Below are positions 5,997 through 56,080 of a DNA stretch of 64,000 nucleotides, in pieces (positions within the stretch are counted from its first letter, which is position 1; each line of letters opens with the position of its first letter). The stretch covers positions 1,984,001 to 2,048,000 of the forward strand of contig NZ_CP037899.1 in the NCBI RefSeq assembly GCF_007475525.1, read 5' to 3'. Below the pieces are notes generated by a model. The model was not told where the DNA came from, did no database searches, and was given only the letters and a program-made list of their open reading frames with translations. This DNA is from Methylacidiphilum kamchatkense Kam1 (lineage in GTDB: Bacteria > Verrucomicrobiota > Verrucomicrobiia > Methylacidiphilales > Methylacidiphilaceae). A program made the position numbers and the translations under genes.

Positions 5997-6236
5997 TCAT
6001 CTAAGATGCAGGTATATATTTGCATCTTTCTTCTCTGGCAGAATGTCAACACTAAGCAGTGGCCAAGTCCCTGGTGGTATGGCCATAGGGACATAAAGGA
6101 ATGCCATTTGGAAGCCTGAAGGATTTGGTTCTATGAAGTTCTACGGTCTTGAGCCTGTGGAGAGGGAAAGACACGGCGCTTGGGAGAACGTTGACCCTAA
6201 AACTATTCTCGATCCCTGTGTGGGAAGGAGAAAGTC
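5997..6236 (-). pseudogene. Possible remnant of an unknown gene
   Basis: Between tsaC/sua5 and gyrA the minus strand reads protein-like text in two overlapping frames. One, ending at the TGA at 5999-5997, reads QMAFLYVPMAIPPGTWPLL and then SVDILPEKKDANIYLHLR; the frame upstream of it reads GIENSFRVNVLPSAVSFPLH. There is no start codon, no full-length frame and no family I recognise. A decayed gene 3' end is the simplest reading; chance is not excluded. Confidence 0.25.
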
Positions 6237-8864
6237 TTAAGGAACAGTATCAAAGCAATTAAGGAAGCAAAGGCTCTTCACCTTCCTCTTTTCAGGAACT
6301 ACTCGAGCGATCGAGGTGACTTTATCATCGCTATCCAACTGAACAAGTCGTACCCCTTGGGTATTTCTGCCTGTCTTTCGAAGATCTTTTACTTTAATTC
6401 TGATAACATTGCCTTTGAGCGTCAATAGCATCAGTTCATCTTCTTCGAAAACGGTTCTGGCCGATACCACTTTGCCTGTCTTCTCTGTGGTTTTCATTGT
6501 CTTTATTCCATAGCCTCCCCTCTTCTGTCGACGGTATTCTTCAAAAGAAGTTCTTTTCCCTATCCCCTTTTCTCCCACAACAAGCAACGTTGCTCTCTCA
6601 TCTACCACAGCAGCTCCCACCACTTCGTCCCCTTCTCGAAGATTAATTCCTATAACTCCAGCAGCATTTCTACCCATGGAACGAACCTGGGTTTCTGAAA
6701 ATCTTATGCTTTGCCCCTCTTTGGTAATTAAAACAATATCCTTTTGCCCATCGGTAAACATACAATCGATCAGTTTATCATTCTCCTCAATACTAATTGC
6801 CGTTATGCCACCTTTTCGGATATTTTGAAAATCGGCAACGGGCGTCTTTTTTACGCGTCCTTTTTTGGTACAGAAAAAAATATAATCGTTTTTGTCCCAG
6901 GAAGTCTCTCTTGAGTCTGAAACTTCGGAATTGGCAACGATTCGCAACATCGAAGCGATCTCTTCGGTAGGTTTTAATTCAAGGAAATTGACTATGTTTT
7001 TGCCTTTGCTCGCTCTTTCTTTTTCTGGAATCTCATATACTCTCTGAATGTAAACCCTTCCATCGGTAGTGAAAAAGAGCAAATAATCATGAGTGGAAGC
7101 ATTGATCAGATTTTCGACAAAATCTTGTTCCTCTTCTTTGCCAACTTCCTGGGTCGCCATGCCCACAACCCCTCTTCCCCCTCTTCTTTGGGACCTATAA
7201 TTATCAAGATTGGTTCTTTTAATAAAACCATTATGCGTCAGAGTGATGACCACACGCTGGTTTGCCACTAAGTCTTCGAAACTAACTTCCCCTGCCTCTT
7301 GGAGAATCTTCGTCTTTCTAGGATTACCATACTTCTCTTTGACTGCCAGAAGCTCTTGCTTTATAAGAGCCCAAATTTTCTCTTCGCTTCCCAAAATCTC
7401 TTTAAACTGCTCAATTTTTTCAAGCAACTCTGCATATTCAGAGGCTATTTTCCCCCTTTCGAGCCCAGTGAGTTGATAAAGACGCAAATCCAGAATAGCT
7501 TCTACCTGTCTTAGGCTCAGGCTATAGACTCCCTCCTCTGTTATTCTATCCTGGGCAATGAATATGCCAAGGGTTTCAAGTAAACGGGTTGAAAATTTTA
7601 GTTCTAAAAGCTTTTTCCGAGCTTCTTCTCGATTCGTTGATTCTCTTATCAATCGAATAAAATCTTCAAGCTGGCTTAAGGCGATCAAGAATCCTTCAAG
7701 GATTTCAGCTCTCTCCAAGGCCTTGTTTAAATCAAAGCGGGTTCTTCTGACTATGACATCATGCCTATGATCTAAGTAACAAAAAAGGAGTTCTTTTAAA
7801 TTGAGGGATTTGGGGCGTAATCGATCAATTGCCACCATATTGACCGCAAAAGTGGTCTGTAGGGGCGTGTGCTTGTAGAGATTATTAATGACAACCTTTG
7901 GTATGGCATCTCTTTTGAGTTCTATCACTACCCGAGTATTCTCGTCGGATTCATCCCTTATATCCGCAATTTCTGGAATAATCTTTTGGTTAACGAGTTC
8001 CCCAATCTTTTCAACTAAAGAAGCCCTGTTGACATTATAAGGAATTTCGTCGATAACAATTGCCGACTTGCCCCCTCTTAACTCTTCAAAATGCACTTCC
8101 CCTCTCACTTTCAGGCTACCTCTCCCAGTGGTAAAATAACTGACAATGCCTTCCTTACCCAAGATAACTCCCCCCGTAGGAAAATCCGGGCCTTGGATGT
8201 ATTTGAGAAGATCTTCAGCAGAAAGACCTGGTTGATCAATCAACGCAACCAACGCATCAATAGTCTCAGAAAGGTTATGGGGAGGAATATTGGTAGCCAT
8301 TCCTACAGCAATTCCCGTTCCTCCATTAACGATTAAATTAGGGAAGGCAGCCGGAAAAACTGCTGGCTCCATTTGCGTTTCATCATAATTGGGAACAAAA
8401 TCAACCGTGTCCTTCTCCATATCCGCCATGAGCAAAGCTCCAGCAGGAGAAAGTCGGGCTTCAGTATACCTCATGGCTGCTGGTGGATCGCCTTCAATGG
8501 AACCAAAATTTCCTTGCCCATCGATCAGCACTTCCCGCATTGCCCATGGTTGAGCCATATGAACAAGCGTTGGATAGATAGCTTGATCCCCATGCGGATG
8601 AAAATTCCCCATTGTTTCTCCCACAATTTTTGCACATTTTAAATGCTTGCGGTTAGGCGCTAGCCCTAGCTCGTGCATAGCAAAAAGAATTCTTCTCTGG
8701 GAAGGTTTTAATCCATCTCTTACATCCGGTAAGGCCCTTGAAATAATCACCGACATCGCATAGTCTAGAAAACAACTCTTCATCTCCTCGGATACATCTA
8801 CCATCCGAACAGATGAGTTATCTCTGATTGATAGTTGCTCGTTGTTTTCAGAATTCTGCGCCAT
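6237..8864 (-). CDS. gyrA: DNA gyrase subunit A
   Basis: An 875-residue type IIA topoisomerase breakage-reunion subunit that introduces negative supercoils together with GyrB. It shows the winged-helix start (MVDVSEEMKSCFLDYAMSVI), the catalytic tyrosine in AAMRYTEARL, and the GyrA-box QRRGGRG at about residue 560 heading the six-bladed C-terminal beta-pinwheel; the box separates gyrase from topoisomerase IV. The quinolone-determining stretch reads HPHGDQAIYPTLVHMAQPW, with Gln and Pro at the positions equal to E. coli Ser83 and Asp87. It lies 31 bases downstream of gyrB, so the two are probably cotranscribed. Confidence 0.98.
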   Translation of the reverse strand: MAQNSENNEQLSIRDNSSVRMVDVSEEMKSCFLDYAMSVIISRALPDVRDGLKPSQRRILFAMHELGLAPNRKHLKCAKIVGETMGNFHPHGDQAIYPTLVHMAQPWAMREVLIDGQGNFGSIEGDPPAAMRYTEARLSPAGALLMADMEKDTVDFVPNYDETQMEPAVFPAAFPNLIVNGGTGIAVGMATNIPPHNLSETIDALVALIDQPGLSAEDLLKYIQGPDFPTGGVILGKEGIVSYFTTGRGSLKVRGEVHFEELRGGKSAIVIDEIPYNVNRASLVEKIGELVNQKIIPEIADIRDESDENTRVVIELKRDAIPKVVINNLYKHTPLQTTFAVNMVAIDRLRPKSLNLKELLFCYLDHRHDVIVRRTRFDLNKALERAEILEGFLIALSQLEDFIRLIRESTNREEARKKLLELKFSTRLLETLGIFIAQDRITEEGVYSLSLRQVEAILDLRLYQLTGLERGKIASEYAELLEKIEQFKEILGSEEKIWALIKQELLAVKEKYGNPRKTKILQEAGEVSFEDLVANQRVVITLTHNGFIKRTNLDNYRSQRRGGRGVVGMATQEVGKEEEQDFVENLINASTHDYLLFFTTDGRVYIQRVYEIPEKERASKGKNIVNFLELKPTEEIASMLRIVANSEVSDSRETSWDKNDYIFFCTKKGRVKKTPVADFQNIRKGGITAISIEENDKLIDCMFTDGQKDIVLITKEGQSIRFSETQVRSMGRNAAGVIGINLREGDEVVGAAVVDERATLLVVGEKGIGKRTSFEEYRRQKRGGYGIKTMKTTEKTGKVVSARTVFEEDELMLLTLKGNVIRIKVKDLRKTGRNTQGVRLVQLDSDDKVTSIARVVPEKRKVKSLCFLNCFDTVP

Positions 8865-8895
8865 AAGTTTCCATCAGTCTAAGAATTGTTTTCTT

Positions 8896-11726
<2,831 letters not shown>

Positions 11727-38226: not shown

Positions 38227-41200
38227 ATGAATGAGACCGAATCGATAAGGTTGCGAAAAATCCGTACTCATAATTTAAAAGCCATCGATCTAGATATCCC
38301 GCATAAAGCTCTGACTGTCATTACTGGTCTTAGTGGCTCAGGCAAATCTTCGCTGGCATTCGATACACTATATGCCGAAGGCCAGAGCCGTTACATCGAA
38401 ACCTTTCCTCCATACATAAGACAATTTCTGTTAAGAACTGAAAAACCAAAAGCCGAAGCCATTGAAGGCATTTTGCCTGCTATTGCCATTGAACAAGATA
38501 AAACGAGTGCCAATACCAGGAGTACGGTCGCTACCATGACTGGCATTGCTGATTATTTAAAACTTTTTTACACCAGGCTTGCCTATCCTCTCTGTCCTCA
38601 ATGCCATCAAAAAATAAGAAAATCCTCCCCTAAGACACTGACAGAGTTTCTTTATAACGCTTATCCCCAAAAAGATTTCCTTATCTGTTTTCCCGTCCGC
38701 TTTTCTGCACATACTCCTTTCAAAGAAGCCTGCCTATTGCTTGTATCCCAGGGATACTCAAAAATTTGGTTAGAAAACAAAATAAATCGGATCGATGAAG
38801 AAATTCTAGAGAAGACGGAGTTCAATTGCCAAGAACTTTTCGTGGTTCATAGTCTCCAACGAACCGAGCCTCATAAGAGAACAGAACTTTTAGAAATCTT
38901 CGATGAGAGTTTTAAATCTGGAAAAGGTCGACTAATGATCGTCCTCCTTCCTGAGAAGGAAAGTCTTGTTTTTAGCGATCAGTTGATCTGTCCTATTGAT
39001 AATATAGAATTTGAGGAACCTTTCCCTGCTCTCTTTTCTTTCAACAATCCTAAAGGGGCATGTCCTACTTGTCACGGTTTCGGAAGAATCATTACAATCG
39101 ACTATGATAAAGTAATCCCAGATAAAACCCTTTCCATTGCTCAGGGAGCAATTCGACCGTTTCAATCCCCAAATTTTGCGCATTGGCAGGTTTTCTTAGA
39201 GAGAATGCTTAAAAAAAGAAAAATTTCTCTTTCAAAAAAAATCTCGGCCTACACAGCAGCCGAATGGGACTATCTTATCCATGGAGAGGCATCTGAGGAG
39301 TCCGCTGAAATTCTAGTGGAAGAAGATTGCTGGTGTGGTATAAAAGGGTTTTTTTCTATTCTTGAGAAAAAGACCTATCAGACTCATATTCGGGTTTTTC
39401 TTTCTCACTATCGTCTCTATTCCCAATGTCCAGAATGCAATGGAAGCCGTTTTAACAAAAAGACCCTCTGCTACAAAATTGATTCTGGCAAAACAGCATT
39501 TTCCATCGGAGAATTGCTCCAGTTACCCATAAACGAACTGATCCATACTGTTGAGGCGGTGGAAATTCCAGCCTTTGATCAAGCAGCAATGAGGATCAAA
39601 GAAGAAATCCTCAGTCGGCTTAGCTATCTAAACGACATTGGACTGGGTTATCTTACTCTGGATAGGGCGAGTCGGACACTTTCCGGAGGAGAAACACGAC
39701 GAGCCAATTTGACTATCTGTTTAGGCAACAAACTAACCAATACGCTCTTTGTTCTTGATGAACCAACTATAGGGCTGCATCCTAAAGATTGTTCAAGGCT
39801 TATCCAACTGATCCAAAAGCTTAGAGATCAAGGCAACACCGTTGTGGTGGTGGAACATGAAGAGACGGTTATTAAGCATGCCGATTATATTGTAGAACTT
39901 GGGCCAGGAAGTGGAGCTGAAGGAGGCCAAGTCATCTATGCTGGAGACCTGCAAGGACTCTGTTCAAGCTCTTCTTCTTTAACTGGAGCCTATCTCAGTG
40001 GAAAAAAATCAATCTCTATTCCCCAAAAAAGGAGAGAGCCCCAATCCGGATTTTTAGAAATTCGCAAAGCTACCATCCATAATTTGCAAGAGCTTGATGT
40101 GGATATTCCCATCGGCTTATTTGTCACCATCACAGGCGTCAGTGGCTGTGGTAAAAGCAGTCTTGTCCAGGAGATAATCGCTTATAGTCTCCACAGAATA
40201 CAAGAGATCAATCCTCCTCCAGGACCATTCTTCACAGACAGAGCCATAATCACAGGTTGGGAAAATATAGAAGAAGTTATTGAAATAGATCAATCACCTA
40301 TTTTCAAAACTCCAAGATCAAATATAGCTCTTTATTTAGGCATCTGGCCTTATGTCAAACAACTTTTTGCTTCAACTGAAGCGGCTCAAATTCAAGGCCT
40401 AGAAGAAAGCCATTTTTCTATCAATTCAGGTGAAGGACGCTGTCCAAGATGCCTTGGGCTTGGCTACGAAAAAATAGAGATGCAATTTCTTTCTGACGTT
40501 TTTGTTCCTTGTTCTGTCTGCGAAGGCAAAAGATTTCAACCCTATATCCTTGCCATTCACTACCATGGGAAATCCCTCGATCAAATCTTGAGAATGACAG
40601 CAAAAGAAGCTTTAATGTTTTTTGAACCGCAGGTTGCCGATAGTTCTCGACAAGCTATTCTTCATAAAAAAATAAGCTCTTTACTTGCTCTTTTAGAAGA
40701 AGTCGGGCTTGATTACCTGCAACTTGGTCATCCACTCAATCAGCTTTCTGGAGGAGAATCTCAAAGACTAAAGATTCTAGGAATCCTTTCCGAAAAATTG
40801 TTCAACAAGAAAACAAGAAGCCATACAAAGCAGAGACTTATTATTCTAGATGAACCAACAACAGGGCTACATATTGATGATGTCAAACGGCTGATTAGCC
40901 TTTTACAAAAACTTGTTGATGCAGCGAATACGTTGGTTGTTGTTGAACATAACTTGGACCTCATTCTCTCAAGCGACTGGGTGATCGACCTTGGACCTTT
41001 AGGAGGAAAGCATGGAGGGAAGATTATTGCCCAAGGCCCTCCGGAAACTATTGCTGCAGCAAAAGAAAGTTTTACAGGGATCTTTTTGAAAGAAAAGCTT
41101 AGGGCAACCCCTTCTTTTCTTCCTACCCCCTCTTCCTTTCTCTCATCAAGAGGCCAATCTCTATTCATTCGCGGAGCCCGTCATCACAATCTAAAGTCCA

Positions 41201-43731
41201 TTTCTCTGGAAATCGAATTAGCCAAAACAACTGTTCTTACTGGAATTAGCGGATCAGGAAAATCGACCTTGGCCTTTGACGTTCTTTTTGCTGAGAGCAG
41301 AAGAAGATTTCTAGATTCTCTTTCAGGGTATGCTAGACAATTTATCCAATCTCTTGAAAAGCCACAGGTGGACGATATAGAATGTCTGCCTCCATCGATA
41401 GCAATTGAACAAAGATCCAACAGACCTGGATCTAAGAGTACCGTCGGCACCCTTTCTGAAATCTATCCCTACCTTAGATTACTTTTTGCCAAAACAGGCA
41501 TTCCCTTTGATCCAGAAACAAAAGAAGAAGCCATACGACAAAGTCAGGAAGATATTTTAAAAGCGATTCGTTTCAGACTCTGCTCAAAAGAAGAATACCG
41601 AATTTTAGCTCCTCTGATTAGAGAAAGAAAAGGTATTTATGTTGCGCTTGGGAAATGGGCTCAAAAAAAGGGCTATGCAGGCTTTCGCATAGATGGACAG
41701 TGGTATGATTGCTGGCAATTTCCCAGCCTTTCTCGATTTAAGAGTCATACCATTGATCTTTGGATCGGTAATGTCAACGAAACTACTTCATTTGAAGAGT
41801 TAAAGAAAAATGTTGCCTTGGCTTTGAGTTTAGGAAAAGAAACGCTCATTTTATGCGATACAAAAAATCAGAAAGACTATCTTTTTAGTACTAAATTTCA
41901 CTGCCCCCAAAGTGGGAAAAGCTTCGATGAGCTTGATCCAAGACTATTTTCTTTCCATTCTCCCTTAGGATGGTGTCCAACCTGTCTGGGCAAGGGAACA
42001 ATGGAAGAGGAAGAGGACCAGGCCGAGCAACAGCCGCTGCTTTGCCCTGACTGTCAAGGGAAAAGACTCAACGCTCTGGCTAGATCAGTTTTTCTTCCTT
42101 GGCCATTACAAAATACAAAACCGACCATTGACTTCCTCTGCTCGCTTCCTATTGGGGAGCTAGTCGGCTATATGCGCTCAATCGTGGCATCAGCAAAACA
42201 AAAAGAGATTGTAGAAAAAATCGTTCCAGAAATTGTCAAACGACTCGAATTTATTTGCAACATAGGCCTTTATTATTTAAGCTTGGAGCGATCCTCTCAA
42301 TCTTTATCGGCAGGAGAACTGCAGAGAATTTATTTATGTTCCCAACTCGGTTCTAATCTCAAAGGCATCCTTTATATCCTCGATGAACCAACCATCGGAC
42401 TTCATCCAACCGAGAACCAAAAACTGCTCAATAGTCTTGAAGCGCTGAAAACTAAAGGCAATACCCTTGTCATCGTCGAACATGATACAGAGACGATGAA
42501 AAGGGCGGATAAAATCGTAGATCTAGGTCCTGGAGCTGGATCAGAAGGGGGACAAGTTGTCTTTCAAGGAAATTATCAGGCTCTCCTTCGTTCTCAAAAC
42601 TCTTTGACATCCCAGTATCTCTCCAAACCAATGAAGCATCCTTTGATGGGCAGAGAACGAAGAAGCTGCAAGAAGAACACAGCTTGGCTTAAGATTGAAG
42701 GGATCTGTTCGAATAATCTTCATGATTTAACTGTGGAAATACCACTTGGACGACTCGTTGTCATTTGTGGCGTTAGTGGTTCAGGCAAAAGCACATTGCT
42801 TAGAGATGGTATTTTTATGGCTGTGAAAGAGGCTCTCAGCAAATCACATAGGAGCACTACAAAAGGCTGCTGGAAGCGTCTGAGTGGTATCGAAGCCATA
42901 AGTTCAGTTTGTTTTGTTGATCAGATGCCCATAGGCAAGAACTCTAGATCAACCCCTTTAACCTATTTAGGTTTGTTTGATAGCATTAGGGATCTTTTTT
43001 CACAAACCCCACTGGCCCGACAACGCGGATATACTAAAAGCCGGTTTAGCTACAACTCTAAAGAAGGCCGATGTCCTGATTGTTTAGGCAATGGAACAAT
43101 TCAGATCAGTATGCCTCTGCTTCCTCTTTTCTACCTTCCTTGCGAGTCTTGTGAAGGTAAAAGGTATAATCCACAAACCCTTGAAGTTCTGTATAAGGGA
43201 AAATCAATAGCTGAAGTGCTCCATATGACCGTTGCCGAAGCTTGCCATTTTTTTTCTTCTATCGAGAAACTAAGAAAACCCTTCTCAATCCTCTGTGAAA
43301 TAGGTCTTTCGTATTTATGTCTTGGTCAGCCTACTCCCACTCTTTCAGGAGGAGAGGCTCAGAGGGTTAAACTAGCCAAAGAGCTCATCGCCATGGAGCA
43401 AAAGCGCATTCAAAAAATGTTTGAATGGGGCGCACAGAAAGAACCCAAAATCTTATATCTTTTGGAAGAACCGACTATTGGGCTTCATTTAGCCGATATT
43501 GAAAAATTCCTGCATTTATGCCAGAGCTTAGTGGAATATGGACACACCGTTGTGATCATTGAACATCATCCTGATGTTATCGCCGAAGCCGATTATGTCA
43601 TCGAGCTTGGTCCAGGAGCAGGGAAAGAGGGTGGTAAAATCATAGGAACAGGAACGCCTGAAGCCTTAGCTGAAATCCAGAATAGCCCTACCGCTCCTTT
43701 TCTTAAAGGAATAGTGATTCCCTCCAAATAG
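38227..43731 (+). CDS. uvrA: Double-length UvrA: two UvrA units fused in one polypeptide
   Basis: 1834 residues, twice normal UvrA (~940), with four ABC modules. P-loops: TGLSGSGKSSLAFD (~33), TGVSGCGKSSLV (~636), TGISGSGKSTLAFD (~1005), CGVSGSGKSTLL (~1515). Signatures: LSGGETRRA, LSGGESQRL, LSAGELQRI, LSGGEAQRV. Every module has its zinc finger with two CxxC pairs. Walker B is LDEP in modules 1-3 but LEEP in module 4. The early zinc module in the UvrB-binding region (LCPQCHQKIR) is present in copy 1 and missing in copy 2 (AKTGIPFDPETKEE). UvrA scans DNA for bulky lesions as a dimer; here one chain would supply both halves. Chlamydial UvrA is similarly double-length. Confidence 0.95.
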   Translation: MNETESIRLRKIRTHNLKAIDLDIPHKALTVITGLSGSGKSSLAFDTLYAEGQSRYIETFPPYIRQFLLRTEKPKAEAIEGILPAIAIEQDKTSANTRSTVATMTGIADYLKLFYTRLAYPLCPQCHQKIRKSSPKTLTEFLYNAYPQKDFLICFPVRFSAHTPFKEACLLLVSQGYSKIWLENKINRIDEEILEKTEFNCQELFVVHSLQRTEPHKRTELLEIFDESFKSGKGRLMIVLLPEKESLVFSDQLICPIDNIEFEEPFPALFSFNNPKGACPTCHGFGRIITIDYDKVIPDKTLSIAQGAIRPFQSPNFAHWQVFLERMLKKRKISLSKKISAYTAAEWDYLIHGEASEESAEILVEEDCWCGIKGFFSILEKKTYQTHIRVFLSHYRLYSQCPECNGSRFNKKTLCYKIDSGKTAFSIGELLQLPINELIHTVEAVEIPAFDQAAMRIKEEILSRLSYLNDIGLGYLTLDRASRTLSGGETRRANLTICLGNKLTNTLFVLDEPTIGLHPKDCSRLIQLIQKLRDQGNTVVVVEHEETVIKHADYIVELGPGSGAEGGQVIYAGDLQGLCSSSSSLTGAYLSGKKSISIPQKRREPQSGFLEIRKATIHNLQELDVDIPIGLFVTITGVSGCGKSSLVQEIIAYSLHRIQEINPPPGPFFTDRAIITGWENIEEVIEIDQSPIFKTPRSNIALYLGIWPYVKQLFASTEAAQIQGLEESHFSINSGEGRCPRCLGLGYEKIEMQFLSDVFVPCSVCEGKRFQPYILAIHYHGKSLDQILRMTAKEALMFFEPQVADSSRQAILHKKISSLLALLEEVGLDYLQLGHPLNQLSGGESQRLKILGILSEKLFNKKTRSHTKQRLIILDEPTTGLHIDDVKRLISLLQKLVDAANTLVVVEHNLDLILSSDWVIDLGPLGGKHGGKIIAQGPPETIAAAKESFTGIFLKEKLRATPSFLPTPSSFLSSRGQSLFIRGARHHNLKSISLEIELAKTTVLTGISGSGKSTLAFDVLFAESRRRFLDSLSGYARQFIQSLEKPQVDDIECLPPSIAIEQRSNRPGSKSTVGTLSEIYPYLRLLFAKTGIPFDPETKEEAIRQSQEDILKAIRFRLCSKEEYRILAPLIRERKGIYVALGKWAQKKGYAGFRIDGQWYDCWQFPSLSRFKSHTIDLWIGNVNETTSFEELKKNVALALSLGKETLILCDTKNQKDYLFSTKFHCPQSGKSFDELDPRLFSFHSPLGWCPTCLGKGTMEEEEDQAEQQPLLCPDCQGKRLNALARSVFLPWPLQNTKPTIDFLCSLPIGELVGYMRSIVASAKQKEIVEKIVPEIVKRLEFICNIGLYYLSLERSSQSLSAGELQRIYLCSQLGSNLKGILYILDEPTIGLHPTENQKLLNSLEALKTKGNTLVIVEHDTETMKRADKIVDLGPGAGSEGGQVVFQGNYQALLRSQNSLTSQYLSKPMKHPLMGRERRSCKKNTAWLKIEGICSNNLHDLTVEIPLGRLVVICGVSGSGKSTLLRDGIFMAVKEALSKSHRSTTKGCWKRLSGIEAISSVCFVDQMPIGKNSRSTPLTYLGLFDSIRDLFSQTPLARQRGYTKSRFSYNSKEGRCPDCLGNGTIQISMPLLPLFYLPCESCEGKRYNPQTLEVLYKGKSIAEVLHMTVAEACHFFSSIEKLRKPFSILCEIGLSYLCLGQPTPTLSGGEAQRVKLAKELIAMEQKRIQKMFEWGAQKEPKILYLLEEPTIGLHLADIEKFLHLCQSLVEYGHTVVIIEHHPDVIAEADYVIELGPGAGKEGGKIIGTGTPEALAEIQNSPTAPFLKGIVIPSK

Positions 43732-45474: not shown

Positions 45475-46155
45475 ATGAAGATATTGATTGTAGAAGACGA
45501 TCAAAAAGTCCGTAAGCATGTCAAAGGAGCTCTGCAAGCTGAAGGTTATAGTGTTGAGGAATGTGAAGATGGGGAAGAGGCTCAATGGCTTTTAGAAAAT
45601 TACTCTTATGATTTAGCAATCCTTGATTTGATGTTGCCGGCAAAGGATGGTATTGGCATTGTGAAGCAGATTCGTCGAAAGGGGATCTCTATTCCCATTC
45701 TTTTTTTATCTGGCAGATCCGAAGTAAGCGACCGCGTCCATGGTTTAGATGCGGGTGCTGATGATTATCTAACCAAACCTTTTTCAACGATAGAACTGCT
45801 TGCCAGGGTTCGGGCTCTTTTGCGCAGACGTTCTCCTATTACTCCTTCGGTACTCAAATTCGAAGATCTGGAAATGGATCTTACCCGTAGAACGGTTACT
45901 CGTGCTGGCCAGAGCATCGAACTGACTAATAGAGAGTTTGAGCTCTTGCGACTTTTACTCGAATCAGCTCCCAACCCTGTTAATAAAGCCGTCATCACAG
46001 AAAAAATTTGGGATAGATGTTTTGATTCAGAAACTGCTTTAGTGAATGTCCATATCAATCATTTAAGACAAAAAATTCATTTGCCAGGCTTGCCTCCCCT
46101 GCTCCATACGATTAGAGGAGTTGGTTTTATTTTAAAGCATCCAACCGATAAATGA
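45475..46155 (+). CDS. OmpR-family response regulator
   Basis: 226 residues: receiver domain with KILIVEDDQKVRKHVKGALQ, the acceptor aspartate in LAILDLMLPAKDG, the switch Ser/Thr in LFLSGRSEVSD and lysine in LTKPFSTIELL, then a winged-helix domain with LTNREFELLRLLLESAPNPV, LVNVHINHLRQKI and HTIRGVGFIL. The layout and partner resemble CusR/CopR-type metal regulators, but the target is unknown. It is immediately followed by the kinase (stop and start separated by one base), so they are translationally linked. Confidence 0.9.
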   Translation: MKILIVEDDQKVRKHVKGALQAEGYSVEECEDGEEAQWLLENYSYDLAILDLMLPAKDGIGIVKQIRRKGISIPILFLSGRSEVSDRVHGLDAGADDYLTKPFSTIELLARVRALLRRRSPITPSVLKFEDLEMDLTRRTVTRAGQSIELTNREFELLRLLLESAPNPVNKAVITEKIWDRCFDSETALVNVHINHLRQKIHLPGLPPLLHTIRGVGFILKHPTDK

Positions 46156-46156: not shown

Positions 46157-47128
46157 ATGTTAAGACGCTGGCATCTTTTTACTGTTGTTTTTTCTTTCAT
46201 TTTTCTTTTCTTATCCGCTATTTTCCATTGGATCGCTGCCGCAAAAGAAGCCCGGTTCCTTCAATCCAAAGAGCATCGAAGAGAATTAGTCCGCTGGGAA
46301 GCCTCTTATGCTTTAGCAATGGTTGTCAGTTTTGGGGTCGCAGGCTATGCTCTTGCAAAATTGTTAAGTAAACCAATTGGACAACTGCGTTCTGATCTTG
46401 AGCTTATTGACCCACATAACCCATGGCAAAGAATTAAAGCCGATCGTTATCCCGAAGAATTTTTACCTCTCGTCAATGAAATCAACAAGCTGCTTTCTAA
46501 AATTCAAAAGGTCGTTGAAGAGTCTGGGAAAGAAGCTGCTGAATTAGTTCATGAACTGCGAGTGCCGTTAACCCTTGCAAAAATTAGATTAGAAAAATCA
46601 CTGGAAAAAATGGACCCTGAAATCGCTGAAGCGATTGAGTCTGAACTGGAGCGGCTGCAACAGCATATGGAAAGAGCTATTCTTTTAACTAAAGCTGAAA
46701 AAGGTAACCTGACCATCCGTTGGGAAAAAATGGAACTTGAGAAAACTACAGAAATCATTATCGAAGGCTTTAGACTTCTTTGTGAAAACGAAGGCCGTCA
46801 CATCCATGTGGAAAAAGAAGCTGGAATCTCTATTGAAGCCGATCGAGCCTATCTCAAACAGATTCTTTATAACTTAATGGCCAATGCCATGAAGCATGGC
46901 TTTGGAGATATTACGATACGAATGAAAAAAATAGGCGCGAACAGCGCCCAACTCTATGTTTTCAACAGAATCAAACCAACAAAGACAAGACCTGGCAATT
47001 TAGGGCTTGGGAAAAGAATTATTCAAGCACTCGTATCAGTTCATGGTAACATGACGATCCGCTACAAACAGCTACATTCCCTATATTGTGCTAAGCTTTC
47101 CATTTTTCCGAGGATAACTAAAACCTAA
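46157..47128 (+). CDS. Sensor histidine kinase
   Basis: 323 residues with two membrane segments (about 8-24 and 48-68), the periplasmic part between them very short (KEARFLQSKEHRRELVRWEA), so a membrane-embedded or intracellular signal is likely. A HAMP-like linker (SKPIGQLRSDLELIDP), H-box ELVHELRVPLTLAKIRLEKS and a HATPase with NLMANAMKHGF (N box) follow. The G1 region is weak (NRIKPTKTRPGNLGLGK), keeping only the last glycines, which is unusual for an active kinase. Confidence 0.85.
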   Translation: MLRRWHLFTVVFSFIFLFLSAIFHWIAAAKEARFLQSKEHRRELVRWEASYALAMVVSFGVAGYALAKLLSKPIGQLRSDLELIDPHNPWQRIKADRYPEEFLPLVNEINKLLSKIQKVVEESGKEAAELVHELRVPLTLAKIRLEKSLEKMDPEIAEAIESELERLQQHMERAILLTKAEKGNLTIRWEKMELEKTTEIIIEGFRLLCENEGRHIHVEKEAGISIEADRAYLKQILYNLMANAMKHGFGDITIRMKKIGANSAQLYVFNRIKPTKTRPGNLGLGKRIIQALVSVHGNMTIRYKQLHSLYCAKLSIFPRITKT

Positions 47129-47432: not shown

Positions 47433-48134
47433 ATGATAAAAGTGCTTTGGAAAAATCAAACAAAAACTTACTTTACTGCTGAGCCGCCTTTAGCCCACGA
47501 GGAGCATGGCTTGTTTTCACATGCGATTGCAAAATACCAAAATTTCACTAATAAAATTCAGATAGATTCTGAAGTTTGGGGATGGATATTATCGGTTATT
47601 TTTCACGCCATTCTGCTTTTTGGGCTTGGATTATCTCTTTTTCCTAAATCAAATTCGAATCCACCTGCGCTGCCTCCATCCATGATAGAACTTGTCCCTT
47701 CGCCAGAACCACAACAACCTCAACCAAAAACCGAATCCCCACAGCAACCCGTCATTCATCCTGATGACATGGTAAAGGCAGTCGTACAAAAACCGAAGAC
47801 TCAGCCAATTAAAAAACCAGCACCCAAACCTCAACAGCCTGTTTCTCAGCGTGTTACTGCTATGGCCATGCCGGATTATCTCAAAAATCCTCCGCCCATC
47901 TATCCTGAAGAAGCCCGGAAAAAGGGAGAACAAGGAGTCGTTTATATTTGGGTGAAGATATCTCCTGCAGGTACCGTTTCTTCTCTGAGCATCTATAGGA
48001 GTTCAGGATTCCATGATCTTGATTCCGCAGCTATGGATGCTGTCAAAAGATGGAGATTTCATCCGGCAATGTCTGGGAATGTCCCAGTGGAATCTCAGGC
48101 AGTTGTCCCTGTCCAGTTCCGCTTGACTAAGTAA
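47433..48134 (+). CDS. tonB: TonB energy-transducing protein
   Basis: 233 residues. A single membrane anchor (about residues 49-68: WGWILSVIFHAILLFGLGLS) includes the conserved histidine in SVIFHAI. A Pro/Gln/Lys-rich periplasm-spanning region follows (PSPEPQQPQPKTESPQQPVI, KPKTQPIKKPAPKPQQPV), then the TonB C-terminal domain (YPEEARKKGEQGVVYIWVKI, LDSAAMDAVKRWRFHPAM, VVPVQFRL). About 48 residues precede the anchor, longer than the usual short cytoplasmic tail. It drives uptake by outer-membrane receptors, two of which follow. exbB and exbD are not in the window. Confidence 0.95.
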   Translation: MIKVLWKNQTKTYFTAEPPLAHEEHGLFSHAIAKYQNFTNKIQIDSEVWGWILSVIFHAILLFGLGLSLFPKSNSNPPALPPSMIELVPSPEPQQPQPKTESPQQPVIHPDDMVKAVVQKPKTQPIKKPAPKPQQPVSQRVTAMAMPDYLKNPPPIYPEEARKKGEQGVVYIWVKISPAGTVSSLSIYRSSGFHDLDSAAMDAVKRWRFHPAMSGNVPVESQAVVPVQFRLTK

Positions 48135-48311: not shown

Positions 48312-51059
48312 ATGGTTTATCTAAAAGAAATAAACCCTTTTGCCCTTGGTGTTTTTTTGTTCGTCACTTTCTTTTTTTCACTCAGTCTTTTTTCTCAGCC
48401 TTCAAAAGAATTACCGCCTCCTAACACTCAAGGAAAACCCTCTGCTGAAGAATCCCAACTTCCTTCGACTGAGCAACCTTCTCAACAAGAATCCACCGAG
48501 CCTCCCCCAGAAAATCATCCACCTACAGAAGGCGCTCATCCAGAGGAAATTTCTCCTACTCCCCCCTCTGAAACAGCTCCCACAGTTCCGCCTTCTGGGC
48601 CAGAAGCAAAGCTTCCACCTAATCTACCTATCCTTTTGCCAATAAGCGTCACAGCACAAGAAGAATTACCTGAAGAAGAAAATGTGGTTTCTACTAATGA
48701 GGAAACAGGTGTTCTTGGACCTGCCATGAAAATCATCGAAACACCAAGAACGGTGCAAGTGGTTACAAGGCAAGAAATGAATACCATTAATGCACAATCA
48801 GTAAATGATTTAGCTGCTTTTACACCTGGAGTTAACCCTACGCAAATGACTGGAAGCCCTGTGGCTGAACCTGTCATCCGAGGATTACCCGCCACAACGT
48901 ATAGAAATGGCATGCTTGTTGGCTTTAGCCAATCCGCACAATGGGGACCGCTTATGAACATGAATGCCTATGATAATTTGGATGTGGTCACTGGACCCGT
49001 CAGCATTGTGTATGGCCCTCAGGAGCTTGCGGGAGGATTTGCCAATGAGGTGACCAAACAACCCTATTTCGACAAATTCAGAGGCAACGCCAGTTACACC
49101 GTTGGCATGTACTCAACCAATATGTGGAATATCGATCTAGGAGGTCCTGTGATAAAGGATAAGCTTGCTTATCGGTTCGATTATTTCGGTCAAGATGGCT
49201 ATGCCCCTTACAATTACTATGATGGAGCTTATCTTCAAAGACAATGTTTCTATCTGAATATTGGAGCCAAACCTTATGAAAATTTATCCATTGATTTTAA
49301 TACCGAACTGGACCTGAATCACTTAAATACCGTTGCTGGCCTGAATAGGCCCACCCAATCATTGATCGATAATGACCTCTATCAAACTGGGACGTGGGCT
49401 GGTTGGTACGGACCTCCAGGGGTTTTCCATCCTGGTATCGGCACTGCGCCTCCTGGGGCTGGCTATGCGGTCAACTGGGGACCTTTAGTTCCAATAAGCA
49501 GAAGGACCAATCTATTTGCAAACCCAGAAAATGCAACAAATCAAACCTATTATGTGGCTCAAGCGATTGAAAATCTTAAGATTAACGACAATCTTTCTCT
49601 TGTAAATAACTCCCTTTTCGAATATTTCAGCACGCTGATCGATCAAGCTATTCCATCAACATTTTGGGCGATACTCCCCTCCGGTTATGATTTTGATGAT
49701 AGACTAGAACTAAGAGCCCAGTTTGATACCCTTCCAGGGAAAAAAGAAACGGATAGCTTAAAAGAAACTGCAGAAGAATCTACTAAAGCCCACTCGCTTC
49801 TTTTGCATCATATGATAGACGCAGGCATTGAGTTTAGATATTTTTCAGATACCGAATACTCTGGAGTATGGCATTCACCTATTAATATCTGGAATTTGAC
49901 TCAACCTCTTACATACAGTAATTTCAGTCCCATTGTTTCTTTTGCAGCAGCTACTAGCCCTCTTTTCCAAAACCCCTATCTGACCGATATTCCTGTTCCT
50001 GGACACCCAGGGATGTACTATAATGTTTTTAACTATCTCTCCACAGCTGACACCTTTTCTACCCTTTCCCCATTCTATCAGCACCAGATTAATTTTACCG
50101 ACCAATGGAGCCTTATGCTTGCTGGAAGAATGAATGCTTTTTTTGTGCAAGCCTCCCCTCCTCCTGGCACCCCCGCTGAAATTTCTCAAGCTGCCCCCTC
50201 TTTTGGCCTCCCTCCTTATACCTCTACCTCCATGAACATCGTTCAACCTGAGCTTACTATTAGCCCCAGTTACAAGCCCTTCCCTTGGATGACCAGCTAC
50301 TTCACCTTTTTCTACGGCCAAACCACACTCCTCTCCCAGTTCGGTAGCTTCGCCCCAGAATTCCCCTCCGCGTATTACCATCAAAACAATTTCCTCTATG
50401 AAGTTGGCACCAAATTTAGCCTGCTCCATGATAAACTTTTCTTAGGCATCTCTGGCTACTATCAAACAGGCTATATCCCCGCTCAAGTCATCCCCGGAGG
50501 CCCTATAGCTACCACTCAAATTGCCATCAAAGGCGCACAGCTAAACGCCAACTATCAGCCTAACAAAAACTTCTGGCTGAACTTCGGTTACGCCTTCATC
50601 GCAGGTCAAGAGCTCTGGCAGGGACTCCCGCTAGGACCTTTAGCTTCACAACCTTATTCTAGTTCTGTTGCTAAGCTCTATGGCCTACCCGTAGACCCAT
50701 TGGTCAATGAATCTCCTCTCAACTACCCTTTCATTGGCTTCCCTCATAACTACGGGAACATAATGGCCACTTATAAGTTCGATAACGGCCTAGGCATCTC
50801 CCTCTGGGCTTTGGCCGAAAGTGGGAATTTCATCTTTTATACCTATTCCACTCGGATCCCCTCCTGGTATACCCTCAATGCTAGAATCTTCTACAGCTCA
50901 AAAAGATGGGAAGCTAGCCTCTACCTCTATAACATCACCAACGAACATTATTGGTTACCAGGTGCCCCAGGCTTTAGTGCAGCTCGTTTTATGAATTATG
51001 ATTACATCGTGCCACAACTTCCATTTTGGATCCAAGGAAGCCTTACTATTTTTTTCTAA
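48312..51059 (+). CDS. TonB-dependent outer-membrane receptor, first of a tandem pair
   Basis: 915 residues: a signal peptide (FALGVFLFVTFFFSLSLFSQ), a Pro/Glu-rich segment (about 30-105), a candidate TonB box ISVTAQEELPEEENVV, the plug (IETPRTVQVVTRQEMNTINA, PVIRGLPATTYRNGMLVGFS, DVVTGPVSIVYGPQELAGGF) and a 22-strand-type barrel ending SLTIFF with a terminal Phe. The plug style is that of siderophore receptors; the ligand is unknown. No STN domain. From about residue 556 to 891 the DNA is almost identical to the downstream receptor, while the rest differs clearly. 178 bases after tonB. Confidence 0.93.
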   Translation: MVYLKEINPFALGVFLFVTFFFSLSLFSQPSKELPPPNTQGKPSAEESQLPSTEQPSQQESTEPPPENHPPTEGAHPEEISPTPPSETAPTVPPSGPEAKLPPNLPILLPISVTAQEELPEEENVVSTNEETGVLGPAMKIIETPRTVQVVTRQEMNTINAQSVNDLAAFTPGVNPTQMTGSPVAEPVIRGLPATTYRNGMLVGFSQSAQWGPLMNMNAYDNLDVVTGPVSIVYGPQELAGGFANEVTKQPYFDKFRGNASYTVGMYSTNMWNIDLGGPVIKDKLAYRFDYFGQDGYAPYNYYDGAYLQRQCFYLNIGAKPYENLSIDFNTELDLNHLNTVAGLNRPTQSLIDNDLYQTGTWAGWYGPPGVFHPGIGTAPPGAGYAVNWGPLVPISRRTNLFANPENATNQTYYVAQAIENLKINDNLSLVNNSLFEYFSTLIDQAIPSTFWAILPSGYDFDDRLELRAQFDTLPGKKETDSLKETAEESTKAHSLLLHHMIDAGIEFRYFSDTEYSGVWHSPINIWNLTQPLTYSNFSPIVSFAAATSPLFQNPYLTDIPVPGHPGMYYNVFNYLSTADTFSTLSPFYQHQINFTDQWSLMLAGRMNAFFVQASPPPGTPAEISQAAPSFGLPPYTSTSMNIVQPELTISPSYKPFPWMTSYFTFFYGQTTLLSQFGSFAPEFPSAYYHQNNFLYEVGTKFSLLHDKLFLGISGYYQTGYIPAQVIPGGPIATTQIAIKGAQLNANYQPNKNFWLNFGYAFIAGQELWQGLPLGPLASQPYSSSVAKLYGLPVDPLVNESPLNYPFIGFPHNYGNIMATYKFDNGLGISLWALAESGNFIFYTYSTRIPSWYTLNARIFYSSKRWEASLYLYNITNEHYWLPGAPGFSAARFMNYDYIVPQLPFWIQGSLTIFF
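48949..49009 (+). repeat. Short identical tract in the plug region of both receptors (copy 1)
   Basis: 61 bases identical to 51721-51781, offset 2772, inside otherwise clearly diverged plug DNA. It encodes the stretch around NMNAYDNLDVVTGPVSI. Confidence 0.85.
49977..50984 (+). repeat. About 1 kb near-identical direct repeat in tandem receptors (copy 1)
   Basis: Matches 52749-53756 at constant offset 2772. By eye I find only two mismatches, at 50039 (C versus T at 52811) and 50591 (C versus T at 53363), both silent third positions. Outside it the two genes are clearly diverged at the DNA level. The tract looks richer in C than the flanking parts. Confidence 0.93.
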
Positions 51060-51140
51060 GCCGTCAATCTCAATCTTTTATCTGTCTAACATTAGAAAAA
51101 AACAGGAGTCGTCTGAAAATATATTGATTGGATATAATAA

Positions 51141-53831
51141 ATGGAAATAATGACTGATTGTTGCCAAAGAAAATATATTTTTTTGCTTCCTCTTTTGTTT
51201 TTCTCTTTTTTCTTCTTTGAGAACTCAAAATCCCAATCAGACCCTGTCTCAAACCATTCTAATCCCGATATTGATCAGTCTAAAAAAGTCAAAGACCAAC
51301 AAACCATTCCATCTTCTCCATCCACCTCGACCGCTCAAACGATTCCCCAAGAACAATCCTCTATCTTTCCTTCTGTTATGCTTTCCTCTCCCCCCGCAAT
51401 GGTGCTTGCTCCAGTTACCGTGACAGCGCAAGAAGAACTTCCTGAAGAAGAAAATGTAGTCTTATCAAACAAACAATCAGAAGTTCTTGGCCCAGCAATG
51501 AAAATTATCGATATCCCCAGAACAATACAGTCCATTAGCCGACAGGAATTAAACACAATAAACGCGCAATCAACAAATGATCTCGCTGCCTTTATCCCAG
51601 GAGTTAATCCTTCTCAAATTACAGGGAGTCCAGCTGGGGAACCCATTGTTAGGGGATTGCCCGCAACTGTCTATAGAAATGGGATGCTCGTTGGTTTTAG
51701 TCAGTCTGCCCAATATGGGCCGCTTATGAACATGAATGCCTATGATAATTTGGATGTGGTCACTGGACCCGTCAGCATTGTCTTTGGCCCCCAAGAATTA
51801 GCAGGCGGATTTGCCAACGAAGTAACCAAACAACCCTATTTTGATAAATTTAGGGGCAGTGCCGATTATACCGTAGGGATGTATCAGACTAATTTTTGGA
51901 ACATCGATTTAGGAGGCCTCATCCTTAGTGACAAACTTGCTTACCGGTTCGATTATTTTGGGCAGGATGGCTATGCCCCCTACAACTATTATGATGGAGC
52001 TTATCTTAATAGAGAATGCTGGTATTTAGCTTTAAGTGCAAAGCCTTATGAAAATTTATCCATCGATTTCAATACCGAACTAGATGACAACCATCTAAAT
52101 ACGGTTGCTGGAATCAACCGTCCAGATCAAGCACTTATTAATAATAGACTCTATCAAACAGGCAGTCTTTTAGGTTGGTATGGACCTACTGGAATACTTC
52201 ATCAAGGTCTGGGAACAGCTCCCCCTGGAGCTGGTTATGCTGTATCTTGGGGACCTCAGGTAGAGATTAGTCCTCGAAGCAATATTTTTGAGAACCCAGA
52301 AGATGGAGATAGACAACTCTATTATGTAGCGCAATGCATAGAAACTTTAAAAATAAATGATGACCTTTCTGTTATTAACAATTCTCTTTTTGAATTTTAT
52401 AATTCTTTTATTGATCAAGCGATCCCATCGGACTTTTGGGGAGTCCTCCCTTCTGGATACGATTTTGATAATCGATTAGAATGGCGGTATTCTTTTGATC
52501 TCTTGCCTAAAGGCCAAACGTCACAATCCTATCCTCAAGAAGGGCAAGAAGATCTTTTTTCTTCTTCTCTTTCTTTCCACAACCAGATTGACGGGGGTAT
52601 CGAATTTCGCTTTTTTTCTGACAAAGAATACGCTGGGGTATGGCATCAACCTGTCAATATCTGGAATTTGACTCAACCGCTAACTTACAACAATTTCACC
52701 CCCATTGTCCCTTTTGCGGCGGCCATCAGCCCTATCTACCAAAATCCTTATCTGACCGATATTCCTGTTCCTGGACACCCAGGGATGTACTATAATGTTT
52801 TTAACTATCTTTCCACAGCTGACACCTTTTCTACCCTTTCCCCATTCTATCAGCACCAGATTAATTTTACCGACCAATGGAGCCTTATGCTTGCTGGAAG
52901 AATGAATGCTTTTTTTGTGCAAGCCTCCCCTCCTCCTGGCACCCCCGCTGAAATTTCTCAAGCTGCCCCCTCTTTTGGCCTCCCTCCTTATACCTCTACC
53001 TCCATGAACATCGTTCAACCTGAGCTTACTATTAGCCCCAGTTACAAGCCCTTCCCTTGGATGACCAGCTACTTCACCTTTTTCTACGGCCAAACCACAC
53101 TCCTCTCCCAGTTCGGTAGCTTCGCCCCAGAATTCCCCTCCGCGTATTACCATCAAAACAATTTCCTCTATGAAGTTGGCACCAAATTTAGCCTGCTCCA
53201 TGATAAACTTTTCTTAGGCATCTCTGGCTACTATCAAACAGGCTATATCCCCGCTCAAGTCATCCCCGGAGGCCCTATAGCTACCACTCAAATTGCCATC
53301 AAAGGCGCACAGCTAAACGCCAACTATCAGCCTAACAAAAACTTCTGGCTGAACTTCGGTTATGCCTTCATCGCAGGTCAAGAGCTCTGGCAGGGACTCC
53401 CGCTAGGACCTTTAGCTTCACAACCTTATTCTAGTTCTGTTGCTAAGCTCTATGGCCTACCCGTAGACCCATTGGTCAATGAATCTCCTCTCAACTACCC
53501 TTTCATTGGCTTCCCTCATAACTACGGGAACATAATGGCCACTTATAAGTTCGATAACGGCCTAGGCATCTCCCTCTGGGCTTTGGCCGAAAGTGGGAAT
53601 TTCATCTTTTATACCTATTCCACTCGGATCCCCTCCTGGTATACCCTCAATGCTAGAATCTTCTACAGCTCAAAAAGATGGGAAGCTAGCCTCTACCTCT
53701 ATAACATCACCAACGAACATTATTGGTTACCAGGTGCCCCAGGCTTTAGTGCAGCTAGAAATTTTAACTATGATTATATTGTTCCTCAACTTCCTTTCTG
53801 GATCCAAGGGACTGTAAGAGTATATTTTTAA
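51141..53831 (+). CDS. TonB-dependent outer-membrane receptor, second of a tandem pair
   Basis: 896 residues (an internal ATG at 51150 is an equally good start). A signal peptide (YIFLLPLLFFSFFFFENSKS), a shorter low-complexity segment than its neighbour, TonB-box-like VTVTAQEELPEEENVV, a plug with DIPRTIQSISRQELNTINA, PIVRGLPATVYRNGMLVGFS and DVVTGPVSIVFGPQELAGGF, and a barrel ending GTVRVYF. It lies 81 bases after the first receptor and is cotranscribed or separately controlled. Residues about 537-872 are identical in sequence to the neighbour. It ends convergently with the hpn gene, overlapping it by 4 bases. Confidence 0.93.
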   Translation: MEIMTDCCQRKYIFLLPLLFFSFFFFENSKSQSDPVSNHSNPDIDQSKKVKDQQTIPSSPSTSTAQTIPQEQSSIFPSVMLSSPPAMVLAPVTVTAQEELPEEENVVLSNKQSEVLGPAMKIIDIPRTIQSISRQELNTINAQSTNDLAAFIPGVNPSQITGSPAGEPIVRGLPATVYRNGMLVGFSQSAQYGPLMNMNAYDNLDVVTGPVSIVFGPQELAGGFANEVTKQPYFDKFRGSADYTVGMYQTNFWNIDLGGLILSDKLAYRFDYFGQDGYAPYNYYDGAYLNRECWYLALSAKPYENLSIDFNTELDDNHLNTVAGINRPDQALINNRLYQTGSLLGWYGPTGILHQGLGTAPPGAGYAVSWGPQVEISPRSNIFENPEDGDRQLYYVAQCIETLKINDDLSVINNSLFEFYNSFIDQAIPSDFWGVLPSGYDFDNRLEWRYSFDLLPKGQTSQSYPQEGQEDLFSSSLSFHNQIDGGIEFRFFSDKEYAGVWHQPVNIWNLTQPLTYNNFTPIVPFAAAISPIYQNPYLTDIPVPGHPGMYYNVFNYLSTADTFSTLSPFYQHQINFTDQWSLMLAGRMNAFFVQASPPPGTPAEISQAAPSFGLPPYTSTSMNIVQPELTISPSYKPFPWMTSYFTFFYGQTTLLSQFGSFAPEFPSAYYHQNNFLYEVGTKFSLLHDKLFLGISGYYQTGYIPAQVIPGGPIATTQIAIKGAQLNANYQPNKNFWLNFGYAFIAGQELWQGLPLGPLASQPYSSSVAKLYGLPVDPLVNESPLNYPFIGFPHNYGNIMATYKFDNGLGISLWALAESGNFIFYTYSTRIPSWYTLNARIFYSSKRWEASLYLYNITNEHYWLPGAPGFSAARNFNYDYIVPQLPFWIQGTVRVYF
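51721..51781 (+). repeat. Short identical tract in the plug region of both receptors (copy 2)
   Basis: Partner of 48949-49009. Confidence 0.85.
52749..53756 (+). repeat. About 1 kb near-identical direct repeat in tandem receptors (copy 2)
   Basis: Partner of 49977-50984. Divergence resumes abruptly after GCAGCT (53756), where copy 1 continues CGTTTTATG and copy 2 continues AGAAATTTT. Confidence 0.93.
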
Positions 53832-56080
53832 ACTTTTTTTTCCTTACTAATACCAGCTAAAGTCAATTTTGAAAGAGGAGTTAAAGAATCGATTAATCGT
53901 GCTGCTTTTTTGCCGCTGAGAATAGCTCCTTCTATTGTAGCAGGCAGTCCCGTGTCTGTCCAATCCCCTGCAATAACAAAATTTTTCCATTCTGTCTGAG
54001 GGTGTGGCCTATATTTTAAAGAAGTGGGATCAAATTTAGGGGTAGCACCTAGAGATTTAAAAAGAAAGCTACCACAAAGCTTTGATTCGATTGAGCGGGG
54101 TATTAGCCGGTTAACTTCTTTCCAAATGATTTTTTCAACCTCTTTAGAACTCAAACTGAGGATATTTTTTGGAGGAGCACTAATTACTGCTACATAAGAA
54201 TAAAAAGGAAAAGACAATAGTTCTTTATCCATTATTAGATTTCTTGAAAAAAGCCATTGTACTGGAGAATCTAAAAACCCTATAACAGGTTGATCCGTAA
54301 AAGGTCGATCAACCCAAAAATACAAACTTAGAATTGGAGACTGTTCGATAAACTCACAGTTCTTTCTCAAGGACGATTCTTTCGGCAACAAACTGCCCAA
54401 TATATGCCACGGAAGGGCGCTTAAAAAATAGTCAACGGAATCGGATGCAAACTCTTTACCATCGACAGTTTTGATGGACTTCAAATAGTTCTCTTCAAAT
54501 TCAAGAGACCAAACAGAAGTTCTAAAAAATAATTTTCCTCCACAAGCATTTATAAGCCGTTCGAACTCATTAGAAAATAGCTCACTTAATCCTACGCGAC
54601 TAAAAATAAGACTAAGATCTTTTCTTTTGCCTAAAATGGTTTTTTTCAGTACAGAATAAAAGAGCTCTGCTGAAGCTTGCTCTATTGACAAATTTAATGC
54701 AGCCACACAGAGGGGCTCCCAAAGGGAGCGAATTAATGAAACACTCTGCTTCTTTCTTCTTAGCCAATCGGAGACTGATTCTCTTTCAGAGGGCTTTTCA
54801 TGAAGCATAACAGAAAGGAGGAAAAAAAAGGCTTTAAACCAATCGCTAACCGAAAGCTCCGAATAACGGAGGAGTGCTACAAGCAGATGGAAAGGGGCTG
54901 GAAGATTTCCAGCCTCGAGCACTGAACTACCTTTTTCACTAACAAAACTAAGTTTTAAAGGATCGATCCATAATAGCTTTGAGCTGATGCCTATTTTCTC
55001 AACAAATTCTAAAGTATGGTGATAGCAGCCCATCATTATATGTTGACCAGTATCTATTATTTGTTTGGTTTGAGGCTCTAGGAAGCTTCCTGCCCTTCCC
55101 CCTAATTTTGATTTTGATTCCAACAGGATTACCTCATGACCAAGGGAGATCAACTCTAAGGCAGCAGATACTCCAGAAAAACCACCTCCAAGAATCACAA
55201 TCTTTTTTGGAGGTCCCGAAGGAAGAGTTGAGTCAGGAACAAAAGCATGCTTGAATAAAACCTTGAGTATAGAAGCAAGCTTTTGAGCCTTGTTTAAGCG
55301 AATCGAATGATGAAACACATCAAACCGTTTTGTTTTTATTTTTTCTAAGATGGCTTTATAGACAGAACTCATGATCTCTGCTGCCAGCAGTTTTGGCTTA
55401 TCCAATGGATGGATGAGTTTGGAAGATTTAGCAAAGTAATGCTTTGCTCGAAAATATTGGAGTCTAAAAAAATCGCGGATTTTTGGGCTCCATCTCAAAG
55501 TAAGGATGTCTTCTTCGCTAATCCCATGGATTTCCAGCTCATCTAAAGGAAAGTAGATTCTACCAAAAGAGGCATCCTTGGGAACATCTCGCAGAATATT
55601 TGTAAGTTGGAAAGCTGTCCCCAGAGCCAGCGCATAGTCTTTACTAAGAGCATGGCGACAACCAAAAATCTCAATGCTCACCAATCCTACCGCTCCTGCA
55701 ACTCGATAACAATATAGCGAAAGCTCGTCGAAATTTTTATATCTTCTTTTTTCTATATCCATTTCTACGCCAAGAATAATCTCCTGAAGAATTTCCTGGG
55801 GAAGATTCCATTTGTGAACGACTTGACTAAGTTCTTTGCCCAATGGGGAAGAAGGAACTGAAGAATAAATTTTTTCTAGTTCTTTTTTCCAAAAAAGGAT
55901 CCCTTCCTTTTTTTCATGGGTAGAAAGAACTGTTGAATCGGCAATATCATCAATTACCCGACAAAAGGCATAAAAGACGGTCATGGCCCATCTTTGTTCT
56001 TTCGGCAAACAAAAAAAGGAAAGAGCCAAATTTGACTTGCTCTTGGAAGTTACCGTTTGTCCGATCAATGGAGAGTTCAT
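53828..56080 (-). CDS. Fused squalene/phytoene synthase (HpnD-like) and FAD-dependent hydroxysqualene dehydroxylase (HpnE-like)
   Basis: 750 residues. The N-terminal part (about 1-280) is a trans-isoprenyl diphosphate synthase: FCRVIDDIADS (first Asp-rich motif) and QLTNILRDVPKDASFGRIYF (second). The C-terminal part (about 292-740) is an FAD amine-oxidase-like enzyme: IVILGGGFSGVSAALELISL, LESKSKLGGRAGSF, the HpnE hallmark DTGQHIMMGCYHHTLEF, and AGDWTDTGLPATIEGAILSG. In the three-gene route HpnC, HpnD and HpnE turn two farnesyl diphosphates into squalene via presqualene diphosphate and hydroxysqualene; here two activities are joined. No hpnC or shc is nearby. A carotenoid (CrtB-CrtI-like) role is the alternative. 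Confidence 0.88.
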   Translation of the reverse strand: MNSPLIGQTVTSKSKSNLALSFFCLPKEQRWAMTVFYAFCRVIDDIADSTVLSTHEKKEGILFWKKELEKIYSSVPSSPLGKELSQVVHKWNLPQEILQEIILGVEMDIEKRRYKNFDELSLYCYRVAGAVGLVSIEIFGCRHALSKDYALALGTAFQLTNILRDVPKDASFGRIYFPLDELEIHGISEEDILTLRWSPKIRDFFRLQYFRAKHYFAKSSKLIHPLDKPKLLAAEIMSSVYKAILEKIKTKRFDVFHHSIRLNKAQKLASILKVLFKHAFVPDSTLPSGPPKKIVILGGGFSGVSAALELISLGHEVILLESKSKLGGRAGSFLEPQTKQIIDTGQHIMMGCYHHTLEFVEKIGISSKLLWIDPLKLSFVSEKGSSVLEAGNLPAPFHLLVALLRYSELSVSDWFKAFFFLLSVMLHEKPSERESVSDWLRRKKQSVSLIRSLWEPLCVAALNLSIEQASAELFYSVLKKTILGKRKDLSLIFSRVGLSELFSNEFERLINACGGKLFFRTSVWSLEFEENYLKSIKTVDGKEFASDSVDYFLSALPWHILGSLLPKESSLRKNCEFIEQSPILSLYFWVDRPFTDQPVIGFLDSPVQWLFSRNLIMDKELLSFPFYSYVAVISAPPKNILSLSSKEVEKIIWKEVNRLIPRSIESKLCGSFLFKSLGATPKFDPTSLKYRPHPQTEWKNFVIAGDWTDTGLPATIEGAILSGKKAARLIDSLTPLSKLTLAGISKEKKV

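Follow-up and report, generated by a model that had tools for sequence, protein, structure and literature searches.

A tandem pair of TonB-dependent receptor genes in Methylacidiphilum points to concerted evolution by repeated segmental gene conversion

How can two neighbouring receptor genes be almost identical over about 1 kb and clearly diverged on either side of it? This question is raised by a tandem pair of genes for TonB-dependent receptors in the acidophilic methanotroph Methylacidiphilum kamchatkense Kam1, the closed genome of which (2,202,032 bp, PacBio assembly) includes the window analyzed here, a stretch of 64,000 nucleotides in whose coordinates all Kam1 positions are given unless stated otherwise.

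The receptor pair and its shared tract in Kam1

Copy 1 (48312..51059) and copy 2 (51141..53831) both lie on the forward strand, and their reading frames are open, encoding proteins of 915 and 896 amino acids. The Plug domain (PF07715) was found in copy 1 with 52.6 bits (E 7.4e-14) and in copy 2 with 45.5 bits (E 1.2e-11), both above the curated cut-off of 23.9 bits. The C-terminal barrel of both proteins has approximately the right length for a TonB-dependent receptor; profile searches gave no family or solved-structure match over the barrel of either one, and the search of solved structures covered essentially the plug and the first strands only. When compared with the siderophore receptor model TIGR01783, the two copies scored 78 and 59.4 bits, far below its cut-off of 223.5.

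Upstream of the pair, a response regulator (45475-46155), a sensor histidine kinase (46157-47128) and a TonB gene (47433..48134; TonB_C PF03544, E 1.7e-23) follow each other in this order on the forward strand; all three were assigned by domain matches and are conserved neighbours by synteny. The response regulator resembles heavy-metal types with a score below the cut-off of that family, and from the gene context we would guess that the ligand of the receptors is a metal or a metallophore. Elsewhere in the window, a forward ORF of 1834 aa (38227-43731) carries UvrA interaction and UvrA DNA-binding domains with several ATPase matches along its length, and it looks like a head-to-tail fusion of two UvrA-type proteins. 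On the reverse strand, a squalene/phytoene synthase (HpnD-like) and an amine oxidase (HpnE-like) are fused in a single ORF (53828-56080), and an ORF similar to this fusion adjoins the receptor in Methylacidimicrobium. About 15 kb beyond the window end, at C1:2063431-2065796 of the Kam1 genome, a further receptor gene is divided between two frames, probably a pseudogene or a frameshift.

The preliminary description had reported a near-identical tract in the two receptors at an offset of 2772 with two silent mismatches, which proved correct to the base. Positions 49977..50984 of copy 1 (residues 556-891) and 52749..53756 of copy 2, both on the forward strand, match at 1006 of 1008 bases, and the mismatches at 50039 (CTC/CTT, Leu) and 50591 (TAC/TAT, Tyr) divide the tract into exact blocks of 62, 551 and 393 bp; the longest exact run in 2000 shuffles was at most 64, compared with 551 here. 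As had also been claimed, the borders are sharp on both sides and the rest of the pair is diverged, with about 70% identity over the remainder of the genes and 71.6% over the plug and front barrel. Third positions differ between the copies at 2 of 334 sites (0.6%) in the tract and at 228 of 437 (52%) in the plug and front barrel. Past the right border, the tails are unconverted and of different type, carrying the motif ARFMNYD in copy 1 (50985..51059) and ARNFNYD in copy 2 (53757..53831), both on the forward strand. Given how such receptors usually end at the C terminus, the last extracellular loop, preceding the final strand, is the probable location of this border.

In addition, a 62-bp exact run in the plug region, at 48948..49009 of copy 1 and 51720..51781 of copy 2 (forward strand), is a possible second converted block in Kam1. 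It is the weaker case for conversion, because the plug region is conserved; the copies of M. fumariolicum SolV differ at nine sites of this block.

Comparison of the pair among Methylacidiphilum genomes

The pair was compared among five genomes: the closed genomes of Kam1, M. fumariolicum SolV (2,476,671 bp), M. infernorum V4 (2,287,145 bp) and the strain designated G001, and the draft of Methylacidiphilum sp. Yel. Orthologues of copy 1 were found in all of them, and each of the four closed genomes has exactly two receptor copies at this locus with conserved order. Since Methylacidimicrobium has one receptor at the corresponding locus, the tandem duplication is older than the species of Methylacidiphilum, provided that no copy was lost in the sister genus.

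Orthologues of Kam1 and SolV are 93–94% identical in front and tract alike. Outside the tract orthologues pair up, while within it the two copies of one genome are closest to each other (99.8% identity in Kam1 and 98.9% in SolV). The copies are alike within a species and different between Kam1 and SolV at 63 sites of the tract and at 1 site of the front; sites of the opposite class, which follow the copy, number 0 in the tract, 296 in the front and 21 in the tail. The left border (49976/49977) is common to both species, and the right borders are a few bases apart, so the simplest reading is that an ancestral conversion set the borders and that each lineage has undergone more conversion since then. 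The first 494 bases of the SolV tract are exact and the remainder has ten differences, which suggests, from the sequence pattern, conversion events of different age. In V4, two stretches are homogenised, an interrupted one of about 48667-49486 covering most of the plug and the early barrel, and one at 49890-50947. G001 has no homogenised tract.

Strong selection holding both barrel ends alike without any exchange was considered as an explanation of the tract, and strong constraint on barrel ends is possible. Against it, silent positions are identical as well, with only the two third-position differences noted above; orthologues differ by 7% in the tract, and the copies of G001 differ at 54% of third positions in the same stretch. 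Pure selection is ruled out by the silent sites, and we regard this explanation as vanishingly improbable.

Assembly collapse or a copying error, by which the sequence of one copy was placed at both sites, would produce a similar picture, and assemblers do fail at near-identical repeats. The Yel draft breaks here: its copy-1 contig reaches only 98 bp into the tract, and a second contig starts 30 bp before the right border and enters a copy-2 type tail, as expected if the tract is an unresolved repeat there too. For Kam1, the published reads have a mean length of 14.7 kb at 489x coverage (PMC6688271) and exceed the 5.5-kb pair. The separately sequenced SolV (PMC4210602) has the same border with different tract bases, V4 has other tracts, and Kam1 keeps two real differences between its copies. 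The check for collapse asked for in the preliminary description is thereby answered indirectly, by published long reads and independent genomes, and we consider an assembly artefact highly improbable.

Cycles of unequal crossing-over (triplication followed by deletion) could also homogenise a segment, in place of non-reciprocal conversion. Direct tandem repeats can recombine in this way, and at another locus of SolV (C1:1598000-1610000, 2374-10139) a whole receptor gene was recently duplicated in tandem, the two genes sharing 97.5% identity along 2.9 kb. For the pair studied here, two exchanges would be required to retain both diverged flanks; exactly two copies lie at the locus in every closed genome, and the copy order and copy-specific ends are retained in all genomes. 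Unequal crossing-over is thus a very unlikely source of the tract.

Paralogues are closer than orthologues within a bounded segment, silent sites are homogenised, and homogenisation recurs in independent lineages, that is, in Kam1 and SolV each after their split and in V4 with other tracts, with G001 lacking any. Given this pattern, we hold it highly probable that the tandem receptors undergo concerted evolution by repeated segmental gene conversion. The earlier proposal of a recent gene conversion is strongly supported and goes further than was foreseen, since the process is recurrent in related species. It had also been stated that a relative with uniform divergence of both genes would speak against conversion; such a relative exists in G001, but three other genomes have tracts, so G001 shows only that conversion is lineage-specific.

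Fourteen residues distinguish the copies consistently in four species, each being invariant within copy 1 and within copy 2 but different between them. Seven of these fall at 49530-49883 and three at 48840-48944; two precede the plug, and two follow directly after the right border. By construction, such residues cannot occur where conversion has acted, and nothing can be concluded from their absence in those parts. Two forward-strand stretches of copy 1 were never homogenised in the four genomes, the plug stretch 48840..48944 with its three copy-specific residues and the mid-barrel stretch 49488..49889 with its seven and a variable insert. The persistence of these residues outside the tract suggests selection keeping the receptors distinct. 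The idea that the ligand-facing parts vary while the barrel end is shared would fit such copy-specific residues being kept outside the tract.

In V4, a second receptor cluster (C1:1240000-1256000, 2051-9724) contains blocks of about 470–520 bp that are 93–96% identical (6407-6873 with 9259-9724, and 6873-7394 with 2051-2571). The blocks surround a 1293-aa ORF with pieces of two receptors, and the cluster looks like an interrupted tandem duplicate.

Donor, composition and route of exchange

The donor was assessed by AU tests with 5000 replicates, a number that the program flagged as few. Copy 2 as the sole donor was rejected (AU p 0.005–0.018) and copy 1 was favoured in the Kam1/SolV line. Codon positions 1 and 2 of the tract favour copy 1 of G001 by 40:15; third positions, contrary to these, lean to copy 2, perhaps from composition or from patchwork donors. 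From these sequence comparisons, the net donor in the line of Kam1 and SolV was probably copy 1. For the V4 tract, the overall leaning is towards copy 2 and is clearest in the 3′ half.

Import from a third locus or another species, followed by spread to both copies, was also considered; a third locus had been suggested in the preliminary description, which noted that the tract seemed richer in C than its flanks. This composition was confirmed (31.5% C in the tract vs 22.4% in the copy-1 front), GC3 is raised as well, and a source lying outside every Methylacidiphilum copy sampled was not rejected in the tree tests (AU p 0.15–0.53). The suggestion itself was not supported: no third copy of the tract was found in the closed Kam1 genome, a source beside V4 was rejected (AU p 0.0006–0.003), the tract falls with copy 1 of G001 in the best tree, and raised GC3 is also seen in the independent tracts of V4. 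Plasmid records gave no tract match. Import is therefore improbable, and we return to repeated conversion between the two copies as the preferred reading.

The GC rise in the tract is clear only at third positions. For copy 1 it amounts to 0.16 in Kam1 and 0.20 in SolV, and for copy 2 to 0.18 and 0.23, respectively; in V4 it is 0.14 for each copy, and the converted front is also higher in GC3 than the unconverted middle. Over the same stretch G001 shows no rise (−0.05 and +0.04), and the same comparison in 24 other receptors of the genus gave −0.022 ± 0.030. In a GC3 model with window and species effects, r was 0.38, a value equalled by 20 of 20000 circular shifts. The converted segments of Kam1, SolV and V4 are richer in silent-site GC, as GC-biased conversion would have it, and G001 does not show this.

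Simple conversion does not account for the raised GC3 of the tract; conversion between the Methylacidiphilum paralogues that is itself GC-biased would explain it. GC-biased gene conversion in bacteria is disputed, with evidence for it (PMC4450053) and against it (PMC8153448). With four outgroups, no extra AT-to-GC fixation was found in the tract relative to the copy-1 flank since the Kam1/SolV split (Fisher p 0.18–1.0; about 50 sites, giving low power), and this polarised-substitution test gave no support to an ongoing GC-biased conversion. We consider a GC bias of the conversion doubtful here; if true, the pair would be a within-gene natural experiment on it, with converted and unconverted segments adjacent in several species. 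Another receptor of V4 (C1:1246996-1249344) has a GC3 of 0.78–0.84 over its whole length vs 0.39–0.45 in three likely orthologues from the other species; it counts against GC-biased conversion as the cause, because it is GC-rich throughout.

The following route would produce the observed pattern. The pair derives from an old tandem duplication, and recombinational repair between direct repeats 2.8 kb apart would repeatedly copy the 3′ barrel segment without exchange of the flanks, possibly through RecA-dependent strand invasion. In the ancestor of Kam1 and SolV, one conversion event, in which the net donor was probably copy 1, would have fixed the borders, and after the split later events would have renewed the tract interior, leaving species-specific substitutions in both copies. 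Conversion may stop at the borders because the diverged flanks block the heteroduplex at mismatch repair, a barrier made plausible by the MutS- and MutL-type domains found in all five genomes; selection against the loss of copy-specific residues may also place the border. In Salmonella tuf genes, a conversion walk extends about 500 nt in either direction (PMC5485169), with which a tract of about 1 kb would agree.

Known systems and the meaning of the pair

The closest known case is that of homA/homB and babA/babB in Helicobacter pylori, where the 3′ segment (segment 3) is homogenised within a strain and the 5′ segment follows orthology, attributed to intragenomic conversion (PMC2795765). Like the Kam1 pair, these are paralogous outer-membrane proteins with a homogenised 3′ segment. 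Unlike it, they are adhesins of a naturally competent pathogen compared among strains, whereas the receptors are tandem and TonB-dependent, are compared among species and have an unconverted tail past the tract. In methanogens, long-lasting conversion has kept one domain of the old operon duplicate mtrA-1/mtrA-2 similar, and another part is different (PMC4632066); the division into a homogenised and a diverged part is shared with the Kam1 pair, but these are archaeal methyltransferase subunits in which a whole domain is affected and a distinct domain is fused. The release factor genes RF1/RF2 underwent independent conversions of one shared domain in opposite directions depending on the lineage (PMC4530459), resembling the receptors in the independent conversion of one segment with a direction that differs by lineage, and differing from them as unlinked housekeeping genes with two ancient single events. 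Salmonella tufA/tufB is likewise a case of conversion between bacterial duplicates (PMC5485169), but there the whole genes are near-identical, with no diverged flanks inside the gene.

In the titles and abstracts of the open-licence literature searched, no such converted pair of TonB-dependent receptors was found, and the parts searched of the genome papers of Kam1 (PMC6688271) and V4 make no mention of gene conversion or recombination. Repeated gene conversion is a known process; its instance in this receptor family is one for which our limited open-licence search found no earlier report.

The pair has practical and biological consequences. Phylogenies and orthology assignments will mislead if they are based on the 3′ end of the receptor genes. 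Several species offer stretches with and without conversion inside a single gene, which is useful for testing whether conversion in bacteria favours G and C. For the receptors themselves, the unconverted parts likely carry the difference between the two, and repeated renewal of a shared barrel end does not prevent tandem receptors from remaining distinct in plug, mid-barrel and tail.
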